NCBI RefSeq assembly: GCF_001884135.1
Contig: NZ_MAOC01000026.1
Location: 124,001 to 188,000 of the forward strand
DNA: 64,000 nucleotides
Direction: 5' to 3'
Origin: Bacillus nitratireducens
Lineage (GTDB): Bacteria > Bacillota > Bacilli > Bacillales > Bacillaceae_G
Shown here in pieces: positions 52,587 to 56,239 of the stretch. A program made the translations under genes and the position numbers. The stretch's first letter is position 1. Each line of letters starts with the position of its first letter. Under the pieces are notes generated by a model. It saw only the letters and a list, made by a program, of their open reading frames with translations. It was not told where the DNA came from and did no database searches.

Positions 52587-52691
52587 CATATCCTCCTTTC
52601 GGTATAAGTCTGAATTTTGATTTCTATATGTTCATTTTTAAGGAAATATTATACAATATGATTATATTCTATGGAAAGCGAGTGATATATT

Positions 52692-52745
52692 ATGACAGTC
52701 AGCTCTTTCGAATTTGTATTAAAAGTAAAGGTGCAGGAAGATTAA
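52692..52745 (+). CDS. 17-codon leader ORF upstream of the methyltransferase
   Basis: M-T-V-S-S-F-E-F-V-L-K-V-K-V-Q-E-D, stop at 52743-52745. The ribosome site is weak (GCGAGTG). Its last codons are the left arm of a hairpin that competes with a second hairpin covering the methyltransferase ribosome site. The layout resembles a translational attenuator. Confidence 0.4.
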   Translation: MTVSSFEFVLKVKVQED

Positions 52746-52781
52746 TTGAATTGAAATCTTCCGTACGTAAAAAACGGAGGA
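52736..52781 (+). promoter_or_regulatory. two mutually exclusive hairpins controlling a ribosome site
   Basis: Hairpin 1: GGAAGATT (52736-52743) with AATCTTCC (52755-52762), 8 bp. Hairpin 2: TCTTCCGT (52757-52764) with ACGGAGGA (52774-52781), 8 bp with one G-U, covering the GGAGG of the methyltransferase. They share bases 52757-52762, so only one can form. Confidence 0.55.
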
Positions 52782-52789
52782 GAAAATAA

Positions 52790-53551
52790 ATGTTTAGTTT
52801 TTATAGTACACTTTGTACGGAACTTTATGATTACACAAAACCTGTTGGTTATTCTTTAAATGGTGATATTGAGTATTACCAAAAACGTTTAAATAATTGT
52901 GAGGGCAGCATACTCGAAGCAGCAGTAGGATCAGGGCGTGTCATTATACCACTTCTTGAAGCTGGTTTTAAAGTTGATGGGATAGATTATTCACCTGAAA
53001 TGCTAGATTCTTGCCGTATGCGGTGTAAAGAGAGAGGCTTGCATCCTAATTTATATGAAGGAAGCTTACAACAACTTTCACTGCCACATAAATATGGAGC
53101 GATAATAATTCCTACTGGCTCCTTTTGTTTAATTGAAAATCGTGATGATTCTATAAACGCTTTGAAATGTTTTTATGAACATCTTAATCCAGGTGGGCGT
53201 TTAATTGTAGATCTTGCGCTTCCATATGACTGGAAGACGGGTGAGATTCATACATCGACTTTTTCCTTACCAAGCGGAGACGGGATTACATTAGAAAATA
53301 AATCAATTGAAATAGATTGGCTTAACCAAGTAACTGTATCATATTTAAAATATGAAAAATGGAGTAAAGGACAGTTAGTACAAACAGAACTACAACGTTT
53401 TGCAATGCGGTGGTATGGAATAGAAGAGTTTAGACTCCTTTTAGAAAGTATAGGTTTCTCTAACATTACTTGCTCTGCTGACTATGTTTATGAAAAGCAT
53501 CCGTCAAATGCAGACCAAATTGTTACTTTTGAAGCTGTACGAAACGAATAA
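52790..53551 (+). CDS. class I SAM-dependent methyltransferase
   Basis: 253 residues. Motif I is I-L-E-A-A-V-G-S-G-R-V-I, motif post-I V-D-G-I-D-Y-S, and motif II L-P-H-K-Y-G-A-I-I-I-P-T-G. It lacks N-I-P-Y/N-P-P-Y motifs of nucleic-acid adenine methyltransferases, so a small molecule acceptor is likelier. The start codon is 9 bp after ACGGAGGAG, which can be sequestered in the hairpin above. Confidence 0.82.
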   Translation: MFSFYSTLCTELYDYTKPVGYSLNGDIEYYQKRLNNCEGSILEAAVGSGRVIIPLLEAGFKVDGIDYSPEMLDSCRMRCKERGLHPNLYEGSLQQLSLPHKYGAIIIPTGSFCLIENRDDSINALKCFYEHLNPGGRLIVDLALPYDWKTGEIHTSTFSLPSGDGITLENKSIEIDWLNQVTVSYLKYEKWSKGQLVQTELQRFAMRWYGIEEFRLLLESIGFSNITCSADYVYEKHPSNADQIVTFEAVRNE

Positions 53552-55807: not shown

Positions 55808-56239
55808 TTATTCTACTTCACTTGTATACTTTTCAGGTAATAATTCCATTACGCTACATTTTACAAGTTCACCATTATAAGAAAGTATAACGTTCGTATT
55901 TTTTCCGTAATCACTTATTAATTCTCGGCACATACCACATGGAGCGACAACCCAGCATTTTTCTATATCTTCATGAGGATGTGGGTGAGCAACGGTTACA
56001 ATGGTATCAAATTCATGATCACCTTCTGAAATAGATTTTCCGATTGCCATAGCTTCACCGCATACTGTTATTCTTCCAACATTTTCTTTAACATGTACTG
56101 CTGCATACACATTACCTGTTTTGGTTCGTACAGCTGAACCGATATGATGACGACCATATTTATAGTTTTTTTCGATTACTTTTTCAGCGGCTCTAATTAA
56201 ATCATAGTCTTCAGTGTTTAAAGGCATTACTTGTAACAT
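55808..56239 (-). CDS. blasticidin-S-deaminase-like cytidine deaminase family enzyme
   Basis: 143 residues, the same length class as the blasticidin S deaminase (140 aa) described from B. cereus. Shared: H-H-I-G-S-A-V-R-T-K-T-G, V-G-R-I-T-V-C-G-E-A-M-A-I-G, A-P-C-G-M-C-R-E-L-I-S-D-Y and L-L-P-E-K-Y-T. Zinc ligands are C in V-C-G-E and P-C-G-M-C; the Glu is catalytic. The normal C-A-E reads C-G-E here. It would deaminate a cytosine nucleoside antibiotic or cytidine. Similarity recalled from memory. Confidence 0.75.
   Translation of the reverse strand: MLQVMPLNTEDYDLIRAAEKVIEKNYKYGRHHIGSAVRTKTGNVYAAVHVKENVGRITVCGEAMAIGKSISEGDHEFDTIVTVAHPHPHEDIEKCWVVAPCGMCRELISDYGKNTNVILSYNGELVKCSVMELLPEKYTSEVE

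Follow-up and report, generated by a model that had tools for sequence, protein, structure and literature searches.

A candidate ribosome-read RNA switch before a small-molecule-type methyltransferase gene in Bacillus nitratireducens and related bacteria

The window analysed here is a 64,000-nucleotide stretch of the Bacillus nitratireducens genome (contig NZ_MAOC01000026.1, positions 124,001 to 188,000). A −10-like box on its forward strand is followed by the start region and the 17 codons of a leader open reading frame (ORF), then by several RNA arms that compete for pairing, and finally by an ORF for a methyltransferase of 253 residues; all of the features described below are on this strand unless stated otherwise. 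The candidate promoter of the leader transcript is the −10 box TACAAT (52652–52657). Across the family, a −10 box matching at least 5/6 positions was found within 44 nt 5′ of the element in 69/80 loci, compared with 37.4 expected from shuffles, and in 38 of those 69 the distance from box to element is identical. By hand count TACAAT lies at this same distance; the first choice of the script in the window was the overlapping 5/6 box TATTAT (52647–52652). A consensus promoter scan of the window listed no + strand promoter at the leader, and the consensus promoter and terminator scan of the window was uninformative.

The leader ORF MTVSSFEFVLKVKVQED has 17 codons and a TAA stop (52692–52745, with the ATG at 52692 and the TAA at 52743–52745). 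It is preceded by a ribosome-binding region GAAAGCGAGTGAT (52674–52686), which is strongly conserved in our alignment A1. We note that in A1 the conservation of the leader start region GAAAGNGAGTGATT seems, family-wide, to exceed the needs of a plain ribosome site. The RNA arms are numbered 0 to 3. Arm 0, CTCTTTCG (52703–52710), runs from the end of leader codon 4 to the start of codon 7 and is predicted by folding to pair with 52775–52782 in the idle RNA; its presence depends on the clade. Arm 1 (52731–52743) consists of GTGC, a bulged A and GGAAGATT, and forms the last leader codons. Arm 2, AATCTTCCGTAC (52755–52766), can partner either arm 1 or arm 3, and arm 3, ACGGAGGA (52774–52781), contains GGAGG, the ribosome site of the methyltransferase. 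Arms 1, 2 and 3 are indicated by both covariation and folding.

The methyltransferase itself (52790–53551) is a class I SAM-dependent enzyme of 253 residues, and profiles, PDB sequence matches and the predicted fold all point to the small-molecule methyltransferase type. Profile matches at E 0.001 comprise ten NCBIfam and six Pfam families, which are generic methyltransferase domains together with a daptide methyltransferase profile, matched below its cut-off. No Erm model is among these NCBIfam and Pfam matches, in keeping with the statement in the first-pass annotation that the enzyme is not an Erm protein. The predicted fold has a pLDDT of 94, and its entire length can be matched to small-molecule methyltransferases, including CcbJ, TylM1, CypM and glycine N-methyltransferase. 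The nearest folds also include YunM and CalS10, several of them from antibiotic pathways, and several of the PDB sequence matches are likewise small-molecule methyltransferases. We conclude that the enzyme is probably of this type. Elsewhere in the window, about 2.3 kb from the methyltransferase, a gene on the − strand (55808–56239) encodes a cytidine deaminase of PRK06848 type (238.8 bits), for which a PDB search at E 1e-10 returned only cytidine deaminases, judged by their names. We take the blasticidin S deaminases to be close to this family.

The first-pass annotation had described a 17-codon leader ending in the left arm of one hairpin (hairpin 1, 52736–52743 with 52755–52762) and a second hairpin (hairpin 2, 52757–52764 with 52774–52781) that shares bases with the first and covers the ribosome site. 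These features are present as described. Hairpin 1 has 8/8 standard pairs, base for base; hairpin 2 also has 8/8 pairs, one of them U-G, and covers GGAGG at 52776–52780. Positions 52757–52762 are common to both hairpins, which are thus mutually exclusive. Hairpin 1 is in fact longer than was claimed, because beyond the bulged A the pairing of GTGC with GTAC adds 52731–52734/52763–52766. Forced within 52725–52792, hairpins 1 and 2 have energies of −13.2 and −9.9 kcal/mol, respectively. As duplexes of short segments, 1:2 is weaker than 2:3 in the window (−10.9 vs −12.1), and with the bulged extension 1:2 reaches −15.7. When 52660–52800 was folded with bases 52736–52745 masked, hairpin 2 formed, as the first-pass annotation had expected. 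The minimum-energy fold of the same segment contains a pairing that had been overlooked, in which leader positions 52703–52710 pair with 52775–52782 over the ribosome site.

Relatives of the methyltransferase were sought by a protein scan of 84,980 species genomes, seeded with exact 8-residue peptides, which found 13 loci: 11 at 57–81% identity in Niallia, Paenibacillus and Jeotgalibacillus, and two remote. None of these 13 is titled as B. cereus group. At E 1e-60, the methyltransferase occurs in 13/19 genomes of the genus of G002 (the genome of L003) and in 11/193 of the family of G001 (the genome of L001); at E 1e-70, it occurs in 121/394 genomes of the family of G002 and 47/398 of the class of G001. 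Many of these orthologs have the same leader and arms upstream. The arms and leader that had been proposed for comparison within the B. cereus group are therefore conserved beyond it, in orthologs from Niallia and Paenibacillus. The gene neighbors differ among the eight loci examined, with no operon partner visible by eye, and plasmid and phage collections gave no match to the leader and gene.

The leader is not universal among the orthologs. Of 143 upstream regions, a simple detector scored 86 at 36 or above and 22 at 34 or below, with 35 having no candidate; L001 and L131 are in the low-scoring group though the element is present there. On a tree of 135 orthologs, labelled from the detector plus five hand-added loci, the leader is present in 83/135 and absent in 52/135, and by parsimony the label changes 18 times (at least 7), compared with 41 in shuffles. 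It follows that the gene works without the leader, and the comparison suggests that the switch has been lost or gained repeatedly. In the leaderless loci L030–L033, a −10-like box and a strong ribosome site can be seen by eye directly 5′ of the gene.

Covariation was analysed in two alignments: A1, which has 49 of 54 representative leaders (omitting L037, L076, L110, L124 and L135), and A3, which has 36 leaders including other gene families (omitting the three pump leaders described below, L188, L191 and further family members). Helix 1:2 has standard pairs in 79.6% of cells in A1 and 83.0% in A3, where slid controls give 41–56% and 40–55%; helix 2:3 has 87.1% and 93.8%, with slid controls at 42–65% and 44–73%. 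For helix 1:2, A1 contains 26 double-change cells, a number reached in 2/500 shuffles, and a one-column slide gives 27; A3 contains 29 (0/500 shuffles as high, slid controls at most 15). For helix 2:3, there are 35 such cells in A1 and 18 in A3, each with 0/500 shuffles as high, and slid controls in A3 reach at most 9. The numbers of double-change pairs in helix 2:3 are not unusual, since 367 and 279 of 500 shuffles are as high (A1 and A3), nor are its pair-type counts (486 and 477 of 500). The compared sequences are kin, and p values in this analysis are therefore not independent. One pair of helix 2:3 is U-G in 48/49 leaders of A1, and in 43/49 the U concerned has an A as its partner in helix 1:2. 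The 1:2 duplex is the stronger in 49/54 leaders, with the window an exception by the short-segment count.

A covariance model, R1, was run on 100 of 136 non-duplicate ortholog loci, mostly pre-selected for a leader. It found the element at 79/100, with a single match per locus that in every case sits where the gene begins, and gave no other match at E 0.001 in 408,115 bases. Leader length was counted from the earliest ATG or GTG at the expected position up to the first stop in the same frame. On this definition, the leader is 16–19 codons long in 74/79 matches, a count biased toward an intact frame because the R1 training leaders were picked by an ORF rule. Among the five exceptions, two leaders have 14 codons, one lacks the usual stop, another reads on past it, and the last is divergent. 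Taken together, the covariation and the kept leader frame place the two hairpins beyond chance, as judged by sequence comparison, and confirm that part of the first-pass annotation.

The encoded peptide is much less constrained than the length of its ORF. Over 184 non-independent pairs, pN/pS is 0.84 for codons 2–5, 0.82 for the middle and 0.66 for the last five codons. Silent sites are also conserved at the two ends, with pS of 0.15 (codons 2–5) and 0.17 (last five) vs 0.32. The start sequences vary among clades, and M-T-V-S-S starts and V-R-K-G ends recur. Constraint on the RNA, from arm 0 and arm 1, appears to fit the leader ends better than an arrest peptide does. The +X+ macrolide arrest motif was considered and rejected, being visible by eye in only part of the leaders.

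The spacing between the leader stop and arm 2 is also conserved. Arm 2 begins at least 8 nt past the stop in 78/81 loci, and exactly 8 nt past it in eight; the 81 loci are the 86 regions scoring at least 36 minus four duplicates and L093, so that the element carriers L001 and L131 (below 36) are not included. Toeprints lie 15–16 nt from the A of the AUG, as quoted in the available part of PMC6851288. By our own reckoning from those toeprints, a ribosome that has the last sense codon in its P site extends about 9 nt beyond the stop. Terminating on the leader, it would therefore mask arm 1 and end just short of arm 2, which could then pair over the ribosome site of the gene and close it.

Folding calculations for the 54 representative leaders are consistent with this geometry. 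When only the RNA past the ribosome edge was folded, with 30 nt of the gene, the mean openness of the ribosome site was 0.23–0.28 with the P site 9–17 codons before the stop, and 0.04–0.06 for the last seven codons. Shuffling the stretch 5′ of arm 2 reduced the opening from 0.253 to 0.087, the real sequence being higher in 45/54. When the whole leader was folded with the footprint masked and 11 nt of the gene, openness was 0.21 in the idle RNA, 0.37 with the P site 9–12 codons before the stop (mid) and 0.05 for the last four codons (late), with mid above late in 51/54, mid above idle in 47/54 and idle above late in 45/54. With 30 nt of the gene, the values were 0.20, 0.33 and 0.04, with mid above late in 53/54 and mid above idle in 38/54. 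The predicted mean opening is thus modest (0.33–0.37). The idea that a ribosome near the leader end opens the site was rejected because of the spacing and the folding.

In the window the predicted states were followed with several lengths of the gene. With 11 nt of the gene, openness is 0.05 in the idle RNA, 0.61–0.63 for codons 4–8 and 0.00 in the late state. The idle and codon 4–8 values are 0.08 and 0.64–0.89 with 3 nt of the gene, and 0.01 and 0.57–0.69 with 20 nt. With 30 nt the band narrows, to 0.06–0.08 for codons 4–6, 0.25 for codon 7, 0.52 for codon 8 and 0.27 for codon 9, with the idle RNA at 0.02. The idle site is predicted to be closed because arm 0 covers it. Among 93 elements, codons 2–8 pair with the site better than shuffles do in 66/93, compared with 32/93 for codons 9–13. 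Arm 0 is clear in xxVxx leaders (25/30) and xxVCS leaders (14/18), weak in MQ (8/15) and MRTI (4/7) leaders, and absent in a second family of methyltransferases (1/5), described below. Shuffling codons 2–8 opens the idle site slightly, from 0.21 to 0.25 (higher in 33/54, p 0.012).

These predictions bear on the mechanism that the first-pass annotation attached to its hairpins, which is partly supported. The conserved leader, the two exclusive hairpins and the predicted closing of the site by a ribosome at the leader end all stand. As for the transcription start beyond 52750 that the annotation named as a refutation, the −10-like box lies 5′ of the leader, at a distance that is conserved. The further claim, that a stalled or absent ribosome alike would free the site, divides: a stall near codon 8 is predicted to open it (52–69%), and with no ribosome it is predicted to be only 1–8% open, because the arm in the early leader covers it.

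The same element also occurs before other genes. Searches of whole genomes with the model gave matches in 57/148 (E 0.1), 42/398 (E 0.02), 24/193 (E 0.01) and 72/235 (E 0.005), the weakest of which are chance-like. The element lies upstream of a second methyltransferase family (L182–L185, L193, L259; truncated in L196 and L254) and of a third (L187, L188, L190, L191, L255, L260, L262 and, as far as it was fetched, L189; truncated in L256 and L257). It also lies upstream of a 295-residue APH-type kinase (L180; element E 3.3e-15), which matches Pfam APH at 128 bits over its first 260 residues and falls well short of all the NCBIfam resistance cut-offs listed. Broken copies of the first family, that of the window, keep the leader and arms in L181, L201 and L258; in L186 and L261 the break also took arms 2 and 3. 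Retention of the leader and arms before truncated or frameshifted copies (L181, L196, L201, L254, L256–L258) is what is expected for a dispensable accessory gene, and intact copies exist elsewhere. Two genomes carry two copies of the element each, before first- and second-family methyltransferases (L111 and L185 in G518, L092 and L259 in G531).

Twenty such elements were re-read, and 13 have leaders of 15–20 codons. In seven near-identical third-family loci (L188, L190, L191, L255–L257, L260) the leader is 27 codons long and runs past arm 1. Because these leaders overrun arm 1, closing at the leader end and the spacing rule cannot hold there, and the loci represent either a different logic or decay. 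The L182 leader reads arm 1 in another frame. Three major facilitator superfamily (MFS) pumps in three genomes (L212, L213 and L218; element E 5.3e-5, 7.7e-5 and 0.003) have 17-codon leaders with different arm sequences in the same order, with 8, 8 and 9 nt from stop to arm 2, and leader peptides that end in KLEGML plus one more residue. The two of these pumps that were scanned match TetA(P) at 257 and 265 bits, below the cut-off of 750, and are thus TetA(P)-related. The pump leaders perhaps form a second, independent class. Weak model matches (about 24–35 bits) before an AhpC gene (L192, L195), and weak matches inside other coding sequence (L194, L214–L216, L219–L221, L225–L228), were rejected, the arms being absent by eye.

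We propose that the leader forms a translational switch that is read by the ribosome and controls the methyltransferase. The leader, its frame, its spacing and the 1:2 and 2:3 covariation come from sequence comparison, and the three states come from folding. In the idle RNA, arm 1 would pair with arm 2 and arm 0 would cover the ribosome site, keeping the gene off. A ribosome slowed or stopped with its P site at about codons 4–8 would cover arm 0 and leave arm 1 free and holding arm 2, so that the site is exposed and the gene is on. Ribosomes that reach the leader end would cover arm 1, and the freed arm 2 would pair with the ribosome site, turning the gene off again. We infer that a compound blocking early translation is the likely inducer, and that the enzyme probably serves to methylate, and so disarm, such a compound. 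To our knowledge, methylation would be an unusual route for disarming an antibiotic. We regard this switch, with arm 0, opening by an early stall and closing at the leader end, as probable, with a confidence slightly reduced by the 27-codon leaders and by the narrower open band.

A simpler version, that of the first-pass annotation, dispenses with arm 0: any failure to read the leader to its end, with the ribosome stalled or absent alike, opens the site. Arms 1, 2 and 3 do covary, the stronger 1:2 duplex in 49/54 leaders makes 1:2 the default pairing, arm 0 is weak in some clades, and the idle RNA is more open than the late states in 45/54; however, the idle RNA is less open than the early-stalled state in 47/54 (38/54 with more of the gene), and in the window its openness is 0.01–0.08. 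We therefore consider this version unlikely. Less likely again is a classical drug-specific arrest peptide of the erm or yxjB type, in which one drug halts the ribosome on a particular nascent chain. The recurrent M-T-V-S-S starts and V-R-K-G ends would be in its favor, as would the late R-Y-R arrest motif that yxjB has according to the available part of PMC6851288, but the leader peptide is nearly unconstrained, its start sequences vary by clade, and folding predicts that stalling late would shut the site rather than open it.

Translational coupling, in which the ribosome terminating on the leader helps the methyltransferase to start, would be helped by the short distance from leader stop to ribosome site, and leader ends past arm 1 could favor it in the seven third-family loci. 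In the 78/81 first-family loci, however, the spacing lets arm 2 close the site at termination, and the late states are closed in the folding model, making coupling very improbable. As for an RNA that binds a ligand or senses temperature, with an incidental ORF, two exclusive covarying helices would suit it, but leader length, start region and stop are all kept and matches to Rfam are all far below the gathering score, and we give it hardly any credence. The ribosome-read switch with arm 0 is therefore the reading that we prefer.

The resistance-like genes that share the element suggest that the switch may sense antibiotics. A wider reading is that the element is a portable, peptide-independent drug sensor, in which the RNA gauges where the ribosome stops on a leader of fixed length, as a band-pass reader. 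Within Bacillales it would have been reassorted to sit in front of genes of at least five kinds, marking hidden inducible resistance genes with small-molecule methyltransferases that disarm ribosome inhibitors. We put this forward tentatively, as a real possibility that falls somewhat short of probable, and the 27-codon leaders and narrower open band slightly lowered our estimate of it as well.

We compared the element with known systems. Rfam 15 gave no family at or above its gathering cut-off over the whole window, and only matches far below the cut-offs. Among the papers listed from the literature searched, a scope outside which most subscription papers and bioRxiv preprints fall, none deals with this element. 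The switch, with its likely mechanism, appears to be a variant of ribosome-mediated translational attenuation that has not been described before. In trp-type attenuators too, the RNA takes opposite states depending on whether the ribosome stalls early or continues as far as the leader stop; these attenuators end transcription and read one charged tRNA, whereas the output here would be the start of translation.

The nearest known systems are toiL, yxjB and cplR/vmlR, none of which has an arm that closes the site on termination, as described in the available parts of the sources. The toiL upstream ORF (uORF) before topAI in E. coli is, like ours, a short leader that reads several translation stresses by way of RNA structure covering the ribosome site of the next gene. 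In toiL it is the leader itself that pairs with this site, and its authors propose that a ribosome stalled at any point of the leader unmasks it (PMC12121999, in part). The toiL leader differs in having eight codons and in belonging to an enterobacterial toxin-antitoxin operon (same source), and in our element ribosomes near the leader end are predicted to shut the site by means of a third arm. The yxjB (RlmA-II) leader of B. subtilis shares a Bacillales leader peptide and a site-hiding hairpin before a methyltransferase, but has a late R-Y-R arrest motif with tylosin, an intrinsic terminator, and an enzyme that methylates 23S rRNA (PMC6851288, in part). The cplR/vmlR uORFs share a short uORF on which a stalled ribosome exposes the ribosome site of a resistance gene, but have consensuses of three or four codons, a terminator in cplR, and ABC-F proteins as products (PMC10201436, in part). 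Classical erm-type attenuation shares a leader peptide, competing helices over a methyltransferase ribosome site, and opening by a stall (PMC12121999, in part, and general background). Our element likewise has a leader ORF with its own start region and competing helices of which one hides the ribosome site; in contrast, a conserved arrest peptide was not found (pN/pS 0.66–0.84, differing starts), the enzyme has no Erm match, and a ribosome at the leader end is predicted to close the site.

Starting from a single suspected leader, the analysis has arrived at a family that can be searched for with an RNA model, and yields a testable rule, namely that the position of the ribosome is read and not the peptide. 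The methyltransferases, one APH-type kinase and the TetA(P)-related pumps may be candidates for induction by translation stress. Once found, the inducer would suggest a substrate for an uncharacterised family of enzymes.
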